Shown here: piece after piece, positions 4,242 through 20,943 of the stretch
How the letters are laid out: the number at the start of each line of letters is the position of its first letter
Position numbering within the stretch: the stretch's first letter is position 1
IMG/VR virus record: IMGVR_UViG_3300032006_000115
Coordinates: 1-20,943 of that record
Reading direction: 5' to 3' (one strand)
Source of the DNA: a virus
DNA length: 20,943 bases
Notes under the pieces: model-generated
The model's input: only the letters and a program-made list of their open reading frames with translations
What the model was told of the DNA's origin: nothing
Database searches by the model: none
Position numbers and translations under genes: made by a program

Positions 4242-5948
4242 TTACGCACTCCGCACCCTGACGGTCGTCCCTGTGGCACTACAGCCGCCTGCAGTGCTAT
4301 CTAGCGTCAGCGTGGCGTCGATGGTTGAACAGTCCGGTTTATCGGTCCCCAGCGAGACGGACCAAACATGCTTCTCGACCACTGCGTCAAACCAATTGCA
4401 TTGTTGCGTGTACTCCAACACGTACCCGTCCGTTGCATCATGGCACAATGTCAGGGTTCCGCCGGCAGCTGTTGACCGGCACCCGCAGCCCACGCCCCTT
4501 GCCCAGCGGCAACAATCAAGCTCGCCGGTTGAACGGAGCACGAAATTCCCCCCGAGCTCCGTGCAGCTGTCGCAGCTGCCCGTCAAGTTTGGATAGGTCA
4601 ACAGCATGGCACCTGGTGCCGTACCCTCGACGCAGTGGCTACACATCGAGCCTCCGCTACTGTCAACCTTGTCACACTCGCCACACGGACTGCCGCCCTT
4701 GCCAGCCTGGAAATCGTCGAAGAAAACTGGCTTGCGAATTCCTGTTTCCGGTGTGCCGTTGTTGTGATAGCGGACCCCGAGACCTGCGAACGGCACGGTG
4801 CCAGCACTGGAGTCGCCAGCCGAGATTCGCTCGCCACCAGCCGATGCGTAAAACTTGCCGTTCCGCAGACAGGCTTCGAGCTGTGTCATGCCCCGGCCGA
4901 GCACATTGAAAGCAGGAAAGACACCCGAACCCATCCCGCCGGAAGCACCCGCAAGCCCAGTCGTATCGATATACTGCCAACCGTTGTAGTACGTCGAGCC
5001 ATTATCGTTCGAGATCGCAAGTTTACTTTTGCCGGGGGTGCTCCAAAACTCGATAACAGCGCACATCGAACTCGAACCACATTCATAGCCCAAGTACAGC
5101 AACGCCTTCGTGCCTTGATCGCCCCGACACAACACGGACGCATACTGCTCTTTCGATCTTGCATCGATCGGCACCAGGTGCTGCACATTTGCATCGGCCC
5201 AGCCAACCAGCTCGCCCGAACTTATCTTCCAGAAGTTCGAGCAGGTTTCCCATAGACAGCCAATCTCGTCATCGCCAACCGGCTTGGCATCTGAATTGGC
5301 ACGGTCGAAGTTGTCGAAGCTCGACTCGCATGGGCAGTCGCACTCGGGGCATTCATTGTCCGGCGACTTGGAATCTGACCAACGGAAGAAAGAAAACACC
5401 ACATCGTCGGACCCACCCGTGCCAGTCCCTAGTCCAGCACCGACGGAAGGTGTCTGCGTGAGCTCCACATATAAGCACGCACCGTCGAGCGTTGCATAGA
5501 TCGCAGCATCGCTCAGGTCGTCATCCGGTTTAATGCACATCGTTAACGAATGTGCGTCAGCTGGGTCGAGATCCTCCAGCCGCCGACGTTCCCCAACACG
5601 GCTATCGCCGATCGCTGTCTTGTTTCTAATCTCCAGCCAACCGCAGGTCCCGCTGCTATCGAACTCGACCTGTGCGTAAACGTACTGGATGCCGGACGAC
5701 ATCCCGCCCAGCAGCTTGACGGACTTCCGGCCGGTACTCACAAACTGCGTAGCGAGTTGCTGGTATAGCAGCCCCGTAGTCGTTGACTTGAGAACAGCGT
5801 TGTCGCTCGCTGTGGCCAGCTCGCCATCGCTGATTGACCACGACCCCGACATCTGTTGATAGTTGGTGATCGTGTCAGTCGAAAAGTCATCTTCGACCCG
5901 CCCGCATCCGCAGCAGTCGCAACCAGGTTGGTCGATCTTCCACGGCAT
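4242..5948 (-). CDS. Cys-rich modular tail protein with two related sugar-binding-like domains
   Basis: 568 residues with 31 cysteines by my count. Three Cys clusters each open a module: CDCCGCG (10-16), CPECDCPC (200-207) and CGECD with MCSHC near 415-430. The first two modules start alike, DDFSTDTITNYQQMSGSWSISDGEL and DNFDRANSDAKPV followed by FWKISSGEL, so residues about 20-195 and 211-410 look like a divergent duplication of a LamG-like beta sandwich. Such domains often bind glycans. The last ~150 residues form a third, Cys-paired domain (YPNLTGSCDSCTELGGNFVL, then LDCCRWARGVGCGCR). From memory similar Cys-paired domains occur in Planctomycetota phage proteins. It is the largest tail gene after the tape measure, so host-surface binding is likely but inferred. 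There is no signal peptide. Confidence 0.75.
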   Translation of the reverse strand: MPWKIDQPGCDCCGCGRVEDDFSTDTITNYQQMSGSWSISDGELATASDNAVLKSTTTGLLYQQLATQFVSTGRKSVKLLGGMSSGIQYVYAQVEFDSSGTCGWLEIRNKTAIGDSRVGERRRLEDLDPADAHSLTMCIKPDDDLSDAAIYATLDGACLYVELTQTPSVGAGLGTGTGGSDDVVFSFFRWSDSKSPDNECPECDCPCESSFDNFDRANSDAKPVGDDEIGCLWETCSNFWKISSGELVGWADANVQHLVPIDARSKEQYASVLCRGDQGTKALLYLGYECGSSSMCAVIEFWSTPGKSKLAISNDNGSTYYNGWQYIDTTGLAGASGGMGSGVFPAFNVLGRGMTQLEACLRNGKFYASAGGERISAGDSSAGTVPFAGLGVRYHNNGTPETGIRKPVFFDDFQAGKGGSPCGECDKVDSSGGSMCSHCVEGTAPGAMLLTYPNLTGSCDSCTELGGNFVLRSTGELDCCRWARGVGCGCRSTAAGGTLTLCHDATDGYVLEYTQQCNWFDAVVEKHVWSVSLGTDKPDCSTIDATLTLDSTAGGCSATGTTVRVRSA

Positions 5949-15539: not shown

Positions 15540-17181
15540 CGGGAGCCCTCCAGGCTTGCATAGCAATCTCGTTCGGGAATGTTTCCAGCTCATCAAACAG
15601 GGCGGACAATGCCTTCGGCAGCTTGTCCCGGGGCGTATCTTCCAGCACGGCGACCACTGACTTGCGATGGCGTGCGCAGTAGGCAGCCGCCAGCGAACCT
15701 GCGTGCAGTGGTCTACCAACCGCAGCCCACACTGCCGAGACTGGCTCAAGTGCCTTCGTCAGTGCTGGCAGTTTCGTCGCGTAGTAGTCCTCAACCCAGC
15801 TCACGAAATACCCTTTCCGATTCCGGCGCTTGGCTGCTGCCGTGATGTGCGCGAAGTCGCGGCGCTGCTCATTCCTCAGCCGGTCCGATGCCAGATCCTG
15901 GAACGCCTCAACCTCGTCCATTGGCTCGGCATCATCGACCGGCACATCTGCAGGGTTGATTGCGGGGTTGCGGAACAGGTCGCCCTTTCCATCGTCTCGC
16001 CTGTTCATGTTCAACTTACGGCGAGCTTCATTCGGCGTGATCAGTTCGGCAGAAATTAATTTCGTCAGCTGGTCAACGAGCGCGACATTGTCGGCCTCGA
16101 TCAGGCTTTGCAGGTTATGCTCGAAGTAAACTTTCTTCTGCGAGCGTTCATCCCCCGTCAACAACTTGAGGTCCGATTCGGCAGCCCACTTGCGAAGCCA
16201 CGGCATCAGCGTCTGCCCCAGGAACCTGCGATTCTCTTCGACTAGGGATGCATACGCCGTCGTTGTATTGTCGCCCAGCATATGAGGCGGGATGTTGAAC
16301 CACGACGCAATCTCGACTCGCTGGAACGCTCGCGACTGCAACCACTGCGAGTCTTCGTTCGAGATTGAGAACGGGACAATTTCCAGGCCGCCAGATAGCA
16401 CAGCGGTCGACGTGCTCGAATCGAGTCCGCGGTGCCGATCCTCAAACCGTTGTCGCAGGCTCGTCGCTTGATCTTCTGACAGGTGTGCGGCAGTCTTCAA
16501 TGCTATGTTCGGGCGGGCGTTGTTTCGGAAATGCCTGTTGCCGTGCTTCTCCTGAGCAAGCCCGAGTCCGAAGCTATTCTTCGCCATCGTAAACACGGAG
16601 TACCCTTGCCAGCCGTCACTCGATAACCCTTTCAAGTGGAATACATTTCGAGCAGGTATCTGCCGAGACTCATCGCGTGCGTCGCTGCTTGTCCAGTACG
16701 ACAAGTCTTCGCCGGTTGGATCCGGGTACGTTAACCCTGGTTCGAGGATTATCATTTCGACAGGACGGCCCGCACCATTCCGCCGGATCTCCGCGTAGCC
16801 GTTGCCCCATAGCAGGGCGTGCGCTTGCAGCGTCTCACGGAACGCAAAACTGGTGATCGTTGGAGTTGGGGCCGGACTGACATTCAGGAGCGACCACGCT
16901 GGATGGTACCGGACCCGCTCACGGTCGTCCGTCACCTCATCCCGCTCGTATATCTCCAACGGCAGCCCGGCGACTGTCTGACTGATCAGGTTCGTCGCCT
17001 GCCACACACTGGAGAACGTCAACGCCTTCTCGGCATTAATACGTTCCCCGCTGTCGGTGTTGTAGTTGCGGCCCAGCCCAGCCGACAGCCACTGCTCTTC
17101 GGGGAGCAACCCTGCGGCAATGGATGGAACAACCTCGGACACGCTGTGCTGCGTGACGATAATCTCGGTGCTCGCTTGCAT
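15523..17181 (-). CDS. HK97-family phage portal protein
   Basis: 552 residues. The opening WLSAGLGRNYNTDSGERINAEKALTFSSVWQATNLISQTVAGLPLEIY region, then WGNGYAEIRRNGAGRP, RHFRNNARPNIALKT and EIASWFNIPPHMLGD are characteristic of the HK97 portal family. The portal is the dodecameric ring at one head vertex through which DNA enters and leaves. The last ~170 residues go beyond the conserved core: a proline- and acid-rich linker (INPADVPVDDAEPMDEVEAF) leads to a basic helical tail, so this copy is longer than HK97's roughly 420 residues. It starts at TAATG shared with the large terminase, and its end overlaps the protease start by 17 bases. Confidence 0.95.
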   Translation of the reverse strand: MQASTEIIVTQHSVSEVVPSIAAGLLPEEQWLSAGLGRNYNTDSGERINAEKALTFSSVWQATNLISQTVAGLPLEIYERDEVTDDRERVRYHPAWSLLNVSPAPTPTITSFAFRETLQAHALLWGNGYAEIRRNGAGRPVEMIILEPGLTYPDPTGEDLSYWTSSDARDESRQIPARNVFHLKGLSSDGWQGYSVFTMAKNSFGLGLAQEKHGNRHFRNNARPNIALKTAAHLSEDQATSLRQRFEDRHRGLDSSTSTAVLSGGLEIVPFSISNEDSQWLQSRAFQRVEIASWFNIPPHMLGDNTTTAYASLVEENRRFLGQTLMPWLRKWAAESDLKLLTGDERSQKKVYFEHNLQSLIEADNVALVDQLTKLISAELITPNEARRKLNMNRRDDGKGDLFRNPAINPADVPVDDAEPMDEVEAFQDLASDRLRNEQRRDFAHITAAAKRRNRKGYFVSWVEDYYATKLPALTKALEPVSAVWAAVGRPLHAGSLAAAYCARHRKSVVAVLEDTPRDKLPKALSALFDELETFPNEIAMQAWRAPDVENK

Positions 17182-18686
17182 TAATAGATCGCCGGTTCGG
17201 GGTCTTTTTCAGGCGCTAAGCTCAACGCCATCGACATGAGAACCGCGACCACGCCATCGATGCGTGCATGCTGCGAACTCTTGACGGGGCGAATGAGACT
17301 ACGGTCGGACGTCGGCTTCACTTCCACGTTATGTATCTGCCATCCGAGACACTCATTCCCCGTGTGTTGTATCTTACCAGACGCGATACAAGACTCGAAC
17401 TCGCGGCACGGCTCGTTGTAAGTTCGGTAGTTTTGGGGGGCGTCAATGGTCTCGATCCCCTCCCGTGGGAGCTCTTGAAAAAACCATTCGGCATTATGCG
17501 CATCGAATGCAACCTGCCGGACCCGATATTGGTGGCAGATCTCGATAATACGCTTACACACGAATCGCTGGTCCACCCGGTCGCCCGGAGTGAATTCGAT
17601 CTCGCCTTGACGCTCCCAGAGCAGGTACGGAACCCTGTCCGTCTTCTCGTGGTCAAGCGCCGTTTCTCTCGGTATCCAATTCCAGCACAGCACCTTGTAC
17701 CCGTCGTCCTCAGTCCGGGCAGTGATCGCGAAAGACGTCAGATCGTTCTTCGCACTCAGATCCGCCCCGCCGAACCACGTCCCGTCGCGACTTATCTCTG
17801 CGACTTGGCACTTCTCCCAGTTGTCTTGATTCAGCCACTTGCTGGTCGATGCCGTGTGCTGGTTCAGGTACAGTCGGCGAAAATCGTTCTCGATCCTCGG
17901 CATCGCCTTCGCGCGTTTGCATAGGCGTTTCATTTCGTCGAGTGATCTGAAATCCCCGAGGGCGGGGTTGCACTTACGCCAAGTCTTGACCAGATCCCAG
18001 CGATCGTTTTCGGCCGCCTCATAAATGATCGGCAGGTACGACGGGTCCTTTATGATGCCGTCGCGAACCTGCGAGGCGTACTGCCACTGCTCAAACTCCA
18101 GCGTCTGGCGGTTGTAGTTGCCGGCAGTTGTGATCGTGACCATAAGTGGCGAGTCGACCTTACCCATACCGGTTACGAAACTGGTGTAGAGCTCGCGATC
18201 TTTCGCAACATGGATCTCGTCGTAGACCACCATCGTCGGCTCGGAACCGTGCATCGCACCCGCCTCAGATGCAACCGCGCGGAAGGTCGACCCCGTCTTG
18301 TTGTTGATGATGGTATGCGTTGACTTGCGGATCGTGACGAACTTCATGAGACGCGGGTTATTCCGCAGCATCGCCTCGACCTTGTTCCACAGGAACCTCG
18401 CCTGGTCGCGGGTTGATGCCGCACAGAAAAACTGACGGTACGGCCGCATGTCACGCAGGAACCTTTCAAGCACCAGCGCGGCCGCGAGCTCCGTCTTGCC
18501 ATTCGCTCTCGGCAACCATATTCCGCAGTGCTTGTACTGCCGGTCGCCCTTGTCCGTGTACGTGCCGATCAGCTTCTTGACGATACGTTTCTGCCACGGG
18601 CGCAGGTTGAACGACTCACCTGTCGTGGGGTGCGTCAGGAAGTTAATAAAGTCGACAGCCTGCTGTCCGGGGTCGGTTGCAATCAT
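17181..18686 (-). CDS. Terminase large subunit (Terminase_1 / HK97-like family)
   Basis: 501 residues, full length for the family. The ATPase domain carries a Walker A-like LPRANGKTE at 58-66 and a Walker B MVVYDEIH at 152-159, where the DE pair is the catalytic acid site. A coupling motif candidate is TITTAGN at 184-190. The RNase H-like nuclease domain keeps its acidic residues: Asp309 in GGADLSAKNDLTS, Asp395 in VAFDAHNAE and Asp477 in HARIDGVVA. The protein pumps DNA into the prohead at the portal vertex and cuts concatemers. It begins within the last codons of the small subunit (ATGA overlap), and its TAA stop shares a base with the portal start (TAATG). No damage is seen. Confidence 0.96.
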   Translation of the reverse strand: MIATDPGQQAVDFINFLTHPTTGESFNLRPWQKRIVKKLIGTYTDKGDRQYKHCGIWLPRANGKTELAAALVLERFLRDMRPYRQFFCAASTRDQARFLWNKVEAMLRNNPRLMKFVTIRKSTHTIINNKTGSTFRAVASEAGAMHGSEPTMVVYDEIHVAKDRELYTSFVTGMGKVDSPLMVTITTAGNYNRQTLEFEQWQYASQVRDGIIKDPSYLPIIYEAAENDRWDLVKTWRKCNPALGDFRSLDEMKRLCKRAKAMPRIENDFRRLYLNQHTASTSKWLNQDNWEKCQVAEISRDGTWFGGADLSAKNDLTSFAITARTEDDGYKVLCWNWIPRETALDHEKTDRVPYLLWERQGEIEFTPGDRVDQRFVCKRIIEICHQYRVRQVAFDAHNAEWFFQELPREGIETIDAPQNYRTYNEPCREFESCIASGKIQHTGNECLGWQIHNVEVKPTSDRSLIRPVKSSQHARIDGVVAVLMSMALSLAPEKDPEPAIY

Positions 18687-19147
18687 GCTCGCATCAACTC
18701 ATCTAAGGCATCGAGCGCCTTCTCAGCACCCGGCACGGAGATACGCGAAAGGCTGCTCGGCGTGAGCCCGAACTCGGCTTGCAACTTTATCAAGCTCGCC
18801 TTGTTCATATGCATTTCGGTAACGTATGGGTTGCGTTTGAAACTGTCGCCGTTCGGCAGAACAGCACCGTACTTGTTCACCGCATCCACTGCGCTGCGAT
18901 ATTGAATGTACGTGTCGGTGTAGACTTCCAAAGCATGGGCGTACACTGGCGACAGGATGCCGAGCGCTTCCAGCGCATCGAGCAAGTTCTCCCAGGCTAC
19001 TTTGCCAACCTTGCTATCGTTAAACCGCTCCGGCATCGGGGGTCGCCCGGGAGGTGCCTCCGGCTCGTTTTCGTTTATCCGATCTTTGTTTGGCTCGCCG
19101 GCGAGTATTTTCAACTTCGTCGGCCTTGGCAGTCTGCCGCTTACCAT
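18683..19147 (-). CDS. Terminase small subunit, P27 family
   Basis: 154 residues from the ATG at 19147. An upstream in-frame ATG at 19228 was rejected because it would lie inside the radical SAM gene and add an unconserved arm. An AAAGG sequence sits about 8 bases before the chosen start. The N-terminus MVSGRLPRPTKLKILAG, then an acidic and proline-rich stretch (EPEAPPGRPP), then a helical body with LLDALEALGILSPVYAHALEVY and a C-terminal LQAEFGLTPSSLSRI segment is the layout of P27/HK97 gp1-type small terminases. These recognise the phage packaging site and hand the DNA to the large subunit. The stop overlaps the large terminase start as ATGA, so the two are translationally coupled. Confidence 0.9.
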   Translation of the reverse strand: MVSGRLPRPTKLKILAGEPNKDRINENEPEAPPGRPPMPERFNDSKVGKVAWENLLDALEALGILSPVYAHALEVYTDTYIQYRSAVDAVNKYGAVLPNGDSFKRNPYVTEMHMNKASLIKLQAEFGLTPSSLSRISVPGAEKALDALDELMRA

Positions 19148-19163
19148 TGCTGTTCGCCTTTCG

Positions 19164-20183
19164 CTAGAGAGTTGCGCCGCTGGTTTCGACGCAGTGCTTG
19201 CAAACCGGGTTCGCTGCATAGCCGCCATCGCGGTGGAGCTGCTTTAGCTTCCGCATTTTCAGCCCGTCCCATGCTTCTCGGATTGTCATGTCGGCAACAT
19301 TCCCCATCGGCAAAGCACGGCCCGAGAAAGTGCAGCACGGCAGAATGTCGCCATTGCTGTCAACGACCATCAACTTGTACGGGAAGGAGCACCGGAAATC
19401 TCGCTTGTCATTTTCCAGCACTGGCAGCGGACTAGGTGCCGTCAGGTCATTGTCGATCCCGGGCAGGTTCACGCGATCTTGAAAGCCGATCATGTCGGCA
19501 ACGCCAGACCAGAGCGAAACGAAGTCATCGGCTTCGTGGATGTTTAGCTCGGTCTTCAGGAAGTTGACCCGCACCAGAGGCCAGGACACGCCGCGCTCAG
19601 CACGCCGATTCAGCAACCGGCGAACATTCCCAACGATACGGTCGAACTGGTTACTGTGCCGCATCAGCGCAAACGTCTCGGCCGTAGTGGCATCTAGCGA
19701 CACCATCACCTTCGACACCCTTGCGTCGATCAGCTCATCGATCTTCGCATCGTCCAGTAGCGTGCCATTCGTAGCGAAGTACACATTGAGCACGCCCCTC
19801 GCCCTTGCATAGTCGATGTACTTACAGATATCGGGCACCAGCAACGGCTCGTTTATGTAATTCAGTTTAATCGAGCACAAGCCGTACCGCTCGCCTTCGT
19901 CAATCACCTTCGCAAAGTCATGGAACGGGAGCGTCTTTTTCTTTATGACTTCATGGCCGTGGGTGCAGAACGAACACCGCAGATTGCAATGCGAGTTAAG
20001 CTCGAAGTCGAGTTGCAAGGGAAAACAGAATTCGCCCAGCGACTGCGCGACATGATACCGCTGCCGGTACCTACGCCACCGGGAAACATCCTTCGGCGCA
20101 GTTATGCCGCTCGGCAGCTCATCAAACAGCGACCGATTTAGCACTGCCGTCAGCTCATTTGCTCGCGACTTTTTTCCTGCCAT
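19164..20183 (-). CDS. Radical SAM/SPASM enzyme, putative DNA or sugar modification partner
   Basis: A 339-residue protein of the radical SAM superfamily. The SAM-binding [4Fe-4S] cluster motif CNLRCSFC supplies Cys66, Cys70 and Cys73. NEP at 111-113 stands where GGEP-like motifs bind the SAM amino group, and FATNG (136-140) ends the next strand. A C-terminal SPASM/twitch-like domain has Cys265, Cys283-Cys284 and the pair Cys328-xx-Cys331, with DSNGDILPCC and MGNVADMTIREAW typical of that domain. Such enzymes use a 5'-deoxyadenosyl radical to epimerise, oxidise or cross-link substrates. The start overlaps the end of the glycosyltransferase gene by 29 bases, and the stop lies 16 bases before the small terminase start. 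I infer that it tailors the modified base or its sugar. A peptide-modifying role is possible, but no precursor peptide gene is visible beside it. Confidence 0.85.
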   Translation of the reverse strand: MAGKKSRANELTAVLNRSLFDELPSGITAPKDVSRWRRYRQRYHVAQSLGEFCFPLQLDFELNSHCNLRCSFCTHGHEVIKKKTLPFHDFAKVIDEGERYGLCSIKLNYINEPLLVPDICKYIDYARARGVLNVYFATNGTLLDDAKIDELIDARVSKVMVSLDATTAETFALMRHSNQFDRIVGNVRRLLNRRAERGVSWPLVRVNFLKTELNIHEADDFVSLWSGVADMIGFQDRVNLPGIDNDLTAPSPLPVLENDKRDFRCSFPYKLMVVDSNGDILPCCTFSGRALPMGNVADMTIREAWDGLKMRKLKQLHRDGGYAANPVCKHCVETSGATL

Positions 20184-20943
20184 CTCGCCCCACCCTCCGT
20201 GGTTTCCTGGCGGCCTTAAGTTTCATTCCGTAGTCGTTTGTCTTGGCTGCATGACTGGCTGCGGACTTGCGGATTAGCTTGTTGTTTTTGAACGGTCGAT
20301 AATCGACAAAGTGGTGCCATCGCCCCCAGCGTTTCACGATCCTTGTTACGTCCGGGTGCTTGGCTTGCAGTTCTTGCGATGGCTTGAGCCGCCCCTCGGC
20401 TGCGTACTTTTCAGTGAGTCCGCCCTTGCATTCCATCGACATGATTTTCTTGACGAGGAACACGTTAAAAAGGATCGTGCAGTTGCCGTCCTTCAGCACC
20501 CGCAAACACAGATCCGTGTCGTCGTTGTACTCACCCTCGCACCGATATGGCTTACCCGAGGCGGACTTTGCTTCGGTCTCGATTAGCATGTTCGAGTAAA
20601 CCCGCGTGTTCAGTGTGAACGGCTTGGCGACATTGTGCTTAGCAACCACGAACATCTCGTACTGAAAACCTGCGATTGGCACATTCTCATAACGGGCCGT
20701 GAAGTCTTCGGCAACACAAAACATCGTTCCGTCAGCAACGGGAACATGGCGATTGCGATTGCGTCGATAAAAGGTTTGCATGTTGTCATCGATCGTCCAG
20801 TACTTTTCATGACCGTGCTCCGCCGCGTGGTCCCAGATCCAGTTGCGAGTGGCGACCAGCCCCTTGTCCGTGTGCGGTAACACGAGAAGGTGCTTGGCAT
20901 CAATCACGGCCGCATACTTGTCAAACTCCTGCGGCTCGACAAC
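20155..20943 (-). CDS. TET/JBP-associated glycosyltransferase-like protein (TAGT), 5'-truncated by window edge
   Basis: The frame is open to the right edge, so the true start is outside; 262 residues are visible, opening with VVEPQEFDKYAAVIDA. A GTG at 20907 is only an internal codon in this reading. I recognise the TAGT pattern: an N-terminal VVEP-xE-(F/Y)D-x-YA segment, then WTIDDN followed by FYRRNRN, which carries the acidic metal/nucleotide-sugar site of a GT-A fold. A later acidic block, EYNDDTDLCLRVLKDG, is followed by CKGGLTEKY. The C-terminal 35 residues are very basic, fitting a DNA substrate. In known phage clusters this family is predicted to glycosylate 5-hydroxymethylpyrimidines made by a TET/JBP oxygenase. 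It overlaps the radical SAM gene by 29 bases, implying coupled translation. Family assignment is from memory of conserved motifs, and the sugar and base are unknown. Another GT-A glycosyltransferase family is the main alternative. Confidence 0.75.
   Translation of the reverse strand, partial: VVEPQEFDKYAAVIDAKHLLVLPHTDKGLVATRNWIWDHAAEHGHEKYWTIDDNMQTFYRRNRNRHVPVADGTMFCVAEDFTARYENVPIAGFQYEMFVVAKHNVAKPFTLNTRVYSNMLIETEAKSASGKPYRCEGEYNDDTDLCLRVLKDGNCTILFNVFLVKKIMSMECKGGLTEKYAAEGRLKPSQELQAKHPDVTRIVKRWGRWHHFVDYRPFKNNKLIRKSAASHAAKTNDYGMKLKAARKPRRVGRDGRKKVASK

Follow-up and report, generated by a model that had tools for sequence, protein, structure and literature searches.

The window analyzed here, i.e., the entire IMG/VR record of 20,943 bases, which has nothing further to the right, encodes a TAGT-family glycosyltransferase and a radical SAM/SPASM enzyme as a pair. 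Dozens of unrelated phages have the same pair, which most likely serves to decorate phage DNA without the usual base-oxidising enzyme. We regard it as part of a phage DNA-modification cassette, in which the payload is a glycosyltransferase in place of a methyltransferase and the radical SAM enzyme alters the sugar, a reading that we consider probable, if only modestly so. The first-pass annotation stood as to the enzyme identities, their coupling, the position before the terminase and DNA modification, but not as to a route through TET and 5hmC or the placement of the pair at the end of a cassette.

The open reading frame at the right edge (20155–20943, minus strand) holds the 262 C-terminal codons of 301. 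The start codon lies beyond the window, and the complete gene (301 aa) is found at positions 4247–5152 of L003, an IMG/VR contig encoding the proteins of the same phage. In the Pfam profile search, the edge gene matched PF20691 (TAGT) with an E-value of 1.2e-29 and 104.2 bits and the full-length copy with 136.7 bits, the curated cut-off being 27.5 bits; the PHROG profile search matched the edge gene to phrog_842 (5.7e-34). All four motifs from which a TAGT had been read in the first place, VVEPQEFDKYA, WTIDDN, NDDTDLCLRVLKDG and CKGGL, are present. The DDN motif (20782–20790, minus strand; D91-D92-N93) is DxD-like, as in GT-A glycosyltransferases, and invariant in the alignment with 8 relatives (A2), and it is the predicted metal/NDP-sugar site. 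A search of PDB sequences with the TAGT found no relative.

The second open reading frame (19164–20183, minus strand) matched both Radical_SAM (PF04055, 2.7e-15) and SPASM (PF13186, 2.7e-12). The cluster motif CxxxCxxC (19965–19988, minus strand), reported earlier as intact, reads CNLRCSFC (C66-x3-C70-x2-C73) and is kept in all 44 relatives in the alignment (A4), and the predicted structure (pLDDT 90) has the TIM-barrel core of the radical SAM superfamily. Four further cysteines, C265, C283, C328 and C331 (19191–19391, minus strand), are also invariant among the 44 relatives and lie at the C-terminus, where SPASM/twitch enzymes carry the cysteines of the auxiliary cluster. They align at equal spacing with the four auxiliary-cluster cysteines of BtrN, the best PDB relative by profile (1.1e-15), and the domain was assigned to the one-cluster (twitch) type. 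BtrN, the 2-deoxy-scyllo-inosamine dehydrogenase (PDB 4M7T), catalyzes the two-electron oxidation of a cyclitol C-OH (PMC9012708). The core and twitch domains of the two proteins align, and the fold comparison gave a Z of 21.6 over 231 residues, albeit with an identity of just 19%, a different genomic context and an N-terminal extension as a further difference.

The overlap between the two frames is exactly 29 bases (20155–20183), in agreement with the first-pass annotation. The order on the minus strand is TAGT, radical SAM, TerS and TerL, and thus the pair lies directly before the terminase, as had been proposed. TerS (18683–19150, minus strand; PF05119, Terminase_4, 3.9e-20) most likely starts at 19150 judging from the comparison with L281, its reading frame being open to 19228, and is followed by TerL (17181–18686, minus strand; PF03354/PF20441; TerL_nuclease, 1.7e-31). 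L003 adds the N-terminus of TAGT and 4.2 kb rightward, which comprise a ParB-like gene, an HNH gene and then tail-type genes. TET/JBP and C5-methyltransferase genes had been anticipated to the right of position 20943; neither these nor any other base methylase was found in the 4.2 kb. The pair is not the end of a cassette either, as the actual cassette consists of ParB-WMPE (see below), TAGT and radical SAM and sits inside the packaging module. In the leftward direction, a search with the end protein found no relative by which to extend the sequence of this phage. A 568-aa protein of the tail region (4242–5948, minus strand) is rich in CxxC-like cysteine clusters, which is unusual for a tail protein.

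With nothing but the radical SAM family as the query, a search of viral contigs retrieved 44 records, and 38 of them hold a TAGT over the Pfam cut-off, usually adjacent to the radical SAM gene and in an overlapping reading frame. Thus, the pairing is real and far above chance, and the coupling claimed for the window is conserved. Among the 50 radical SAM loci compared, which were both viral and cellular, neighbour clustering identified a ParB-like gene in 37; the TerL genes downstream belonged to several unrelated clusters. The viral radical SAM proteins formed a single clade with a support of 100, apart from the cellular ones, and within this clade the ParB-TAGT partner changed its type at least twice while the radical SAM enzyme stayed. 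Two close TerL relatives of the phage in the window (L280 and L281) lack the cassette, and the cassette therefore behaves as a unit entering a fixed slot. The majority of the records compared are fragments; among annotated phages, the relatives of the radical SAM enzyme amounted to two weak, unannotated fecal records, and the pair was found in no cultured phage. In L098 (2481–3272), a second type of ParB-like protein with another C-terminal domain (NPYT ... IANYYAH ... DYDQAI) accompanies a member of this radical SAM family and a divergent TAGT.

The ParB-like protein of L003 bears a C-terminal domain of approximately 60 residues, here termed WMPE, for which we found no description in the open literature searched. 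Its pattern is W..MPE..(D)...HF...F..LI.Q.I...T...W(Y/F)P. The rest of the protein has a ParB/sulfiredoxin fold according to Foldseek, and it is this part that the hits of ParB-WMPE cover. In the cassette, the ParB-like gene ending in WMPE is followed by TAGT and radical SAM, either of which may come first; elsewhere, WMPE stands alone directly before TAGT or is fused to it, occupying the N-terminus of the TAGTs in T4-like, jumbo and Vibrio phages. Vibrio phages 1.076.O and 1.124.O are among those with the fused form. Since the 41 aligned ParB-WMPE proteins were too diverse for scanning, we used a DNA motif, which is blind to TAGT, and obtained 117 new loci. TAGT was adjacent or fused in 111 of them, and four of the other six run into a contig end. 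Radical SAM, by comparison, was detected in only two of the 117 at a loose threshold and in none at a strict one. WMPE is thus an obligate partner of TAGT, and the radical SAM enzyme is optional, depending on TAGT but not vice versa. This one-way dependence suggests that the radical SAM enzyme tailors what TAGT handles. In Vibrio phage henriette 12B8 (L145; NC_021073.1, approximately 20.9–22.2 kb), WMPE and TAGT frames were recognized, the latter without an annotated gene.

What relatives carry in the same slot is the best evidence for a DNA-modifying payload. The TerL of L280 is 70% identical to that of the phage in the window, and the gene before its TerS encodes an N6/N4 DNA methyltransferase (N6_N4_Mtase, 1e-18) of phrog_498, whose N-terminal ParB part matches the ParB of our phage (3e-14). 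In a second TerL lineage, 44 loci had enough upstream sequence to be compared: ParB-WMPE, radical SAM and TAGT co-occurred in nine, ParB-WMPE and TAGT in 17, ParB and TAGT in one, ParB alone in three and none of these in 14. Both of the ParB-alone proteins that were tested, out of the three, are ParB-methyltransferase fusions (L335 and L338). The slot before TerS therefore takes either a DNA methyltransferase or a glycosyltransferase, in two terminase lineages. Because the same slot in relatives holds a ParB-type N6/N4 DNA methyltransferase, the payload probably modifies DNA, which upholds the earlier proposal of DNA modification. WMPE-TAGT proteins fused to a C-terminal domain resembling the UDG superfamily (L025, 9656–11296; L028, 9286–11022; GQAPG ... 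PHPSG), with matches below the Pfam cut-off, possibly link TAGT to the handling of DNA bases. A stand-alone relative of the UDG-like domain occurs in L262. In L007 (697–4924), TAGT lies downstream of QueD/PTPS-like and QueE-like radical SAM genes (7-deazaguanine pathway), with an N6/N4 methyltransferase nearby.

As for the substrate of the radical SAM enzyme, BtrN, BlsE and DesII were among the best matches in a fold search with the predicted model, and the Z values were alike at 21–22 for SkfB, BtrN, SuiB, anSME and BlsE; judging from the model, the fold alone makes no choice between sugar-active and peptide-active enzymes. Unlike the fold, the genomic context favours a sugar over a peptide. 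The cellular relatives lie in polysaccharide clusters behind genes similar to the glucose-1-phosphate cytidylyltransferase of TIGR02623, and the phage cassettes have as companions an NAD epimerase (L011 and L050), GalE (G024) and a nucleotidyltransferase (L119). Because of the BtrN-like one-cluster twitch domain and the cytidylyltransferase-like genes preceding the cellular relatives, the radical SAM enzyme most likely tailors a sugar. Of the 43 viral radical SAM loci, 10 have a member of a SAM methyltransferase family; this family was once found fused to a TAGT, which is of type 2 (L101, 5479–7431); in L011 and L097, the methyltransferase lies between radical SAM and TAGT.

Altogether, we propose that the ParB-like protein would bind DNA and, via its C-terminal WMPE, TAGT, and would thereby bring TAGT to the phage DNA, where a sugar would be moved from a nucleotide-sugar onto a DNA base. 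The radical SAM enzyme, whose reading frame overlaps that of TAGT, may act on the donor nucleotide-sugar or on the sugar once it is attached to DNA. Its SAM cluster would abstract a hydrogen atom from the sugar, the electron would pass to its auxiliary cluster, and one C-OH would most likely become a ketone, as with BtrN; epimerisation or deoxygenation is also conceivable. The altered sugar may shield the genome against restriction or against defences that target glucosyl-DNA. Several observations speak against this reading: no gene for making a hydroxylated acceptor base was seen in two apparently complete relatives of approximately 40 kb, the biochemically known TAGT of T6 is very distant (BLAST E-value of 0.012), the fold comparison does not set sugar-active apart from peptide-active radical SAM enzymes, the UDG matches lie below the Pfam cut-off, and one relative, L012, lies within a cassette of ordinary glycosyltransferases.

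How the acceptor base would arise bears on the classical route, in which a C5-methylase and TET/JBP encoded elsewhere yield 5hmC, TAGT glycosylates it and the radical SAM enzyme adds a step. In favour of this route, PF20691 is named after the association with TET, Nonlabens phage P12024L has the order TET-TAGT-methyltransferase with a distantly related TAGT (23% identity), and half of the genome of the phage in the window lies outside the record. Nevertheless, TET/JBP (PF12851) was found in none of the 55 records of this branch, the record of the window itself being partial, although the same search recovered the positive control P12024L (2.8e-29). C5-cytosine methylase (PF00145) appeared in one of 50 virus records and never with radical SAM, and genes of the thymidylate-synthase fold (PF00303; dCMP/dUMP hydroxymethylase type) in none of 50. 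Two relatives that look complete from their overlapping ends, G024 (41,346 bases) and G019 (39,617 bases), likewise have no TET/JBP, C5-methylase or hydroxymethylase-type gene; a Pfam scan of G024 turned up TAGT, radical SAM and ParB_N along with a GalE epimerase, and of its 32 families the 25 listed include none that hydroxylates bases. In addition, the TET-linked TAGT has no WMPE domain. We thus rejected a TET/JBP-5hmC origin of the acceptor base for this branch, departing from the first-pass annotation, which had TAGT act with TET/JBP on hydroxymethylated bases, and the classical route as a whole appears quite improbable. The acceptor is possibly an unmodified base or a base made by some other enzyme. 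In a more specific version, which we consider unlikely, ParB-WMPE directs TAGT to put the sugar straight onto an ordinary base, for example onto an exocyclic amine, where the slot-sharing N6/N4 methyltransferases act, and the sugar is oxidised on the DNA by the radical SAM enzyme afterwards.

The acceptor may instead be a virion or packaging protein, the glycan of which the radical SAM enzyme would tailor. This is consistent with the missing acceptor-base pathway, the location of the cassette in the structural/packaging region and the cellular relatives in surface polysaccharide clusters. L012 (1–4742), a fragment without TAGT, points the same way: upstream of, and beside, its head genes lie several GT2-type glycosyltransferases, a methyltransferase and a member of this radical SAM family. 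We consider a protein acceptor rather unlikely, as DNA methyltransferases replace the payload of this slot in two lineages, the ParB-like partner is elsewhere fused to DNA methylases (phrog_498), some TAGTs carry the UDG-like fusion (below the Pfam cut-off) and WMPE-TAGT lies away from structural genes in T4-like and jumbo phages. A cassette modifying LPS or capsule on the host surface is very improbable: the cellular radical SAM relatives do occur in O-antigen-like clusters with GDP-mannose dehydratase, GDP-fucose synthase and cytidylyltransferase, but neither the constant place before TerS nor the constant ParB-WMPE partner fits, and the cassette was not seen together with a gene for a membrane protein, a flippase or a lipid carrier. 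SPASM enzymes are often peptide maturases, and SkfB and SuiB equal BtrN in fold score. However, it is extremely doubtful that the radical SAM enzyme is a RiPP-type maturase beside TAGT by chance, as the association in 38 of 44 records was kept through the exchange of the ParB-TAGT type and the neighbours of at least 60 aa included no small conserved peptide gene.

TAGT was reportedly first proposed, and phage TET systems tested, in work of Iyer in 2013 and Burke in 2021. The cassette differs from each of the systems compared. The beta-glucosyl-HMC-alpha-glucosyltransferase of T6 (PMC13216743) shares PF20691, phrog_842 and the GT-A type with the TAGT in the window, but it scores only approximately 22 bits when compared with this branch's profile, has neither WMPE nor ParB and adjoins a gene of the thymidylate-synthase fold, a kind of gene that none of the 50 virus records of this branch holds. 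The P12024L cassette is similar in that TAGT lies near a SAM methyltransferase and DNA modification is predicted, whereas it includes TET/JBP and is devoid of WMPE, ParB and radical SAM. The phage ParB-DNA methyltransferases of phrog_498 share the slot before TerS and a homologous ParB-like part, but carry an N6/N4 methyltransferase as payload where the cassette has WMPE-TAGT and radical SAM. TAGT without alpha- or beta-glucosyltransferases has been found in 288 of 753 phage genomes and called a potential novel transferase (PMC13216743, 2026). Our analysis sets apart a large TAGT branch with an obligate WMPE partner, ParB, no TET, a slot shared with methyltransferases and radical SAM as an add-on. 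If the sugar is put straight onto an ordinary base, this would be a route without a pre-hydroxylated base and the first radical step on a DNA glycan. If the DNA-modification reading is true, the alteration of a phage DNA sugar by radical chemistry would be a new reaction class in DNA modification and a counter to both restriction and glucosyl-DNA defences.
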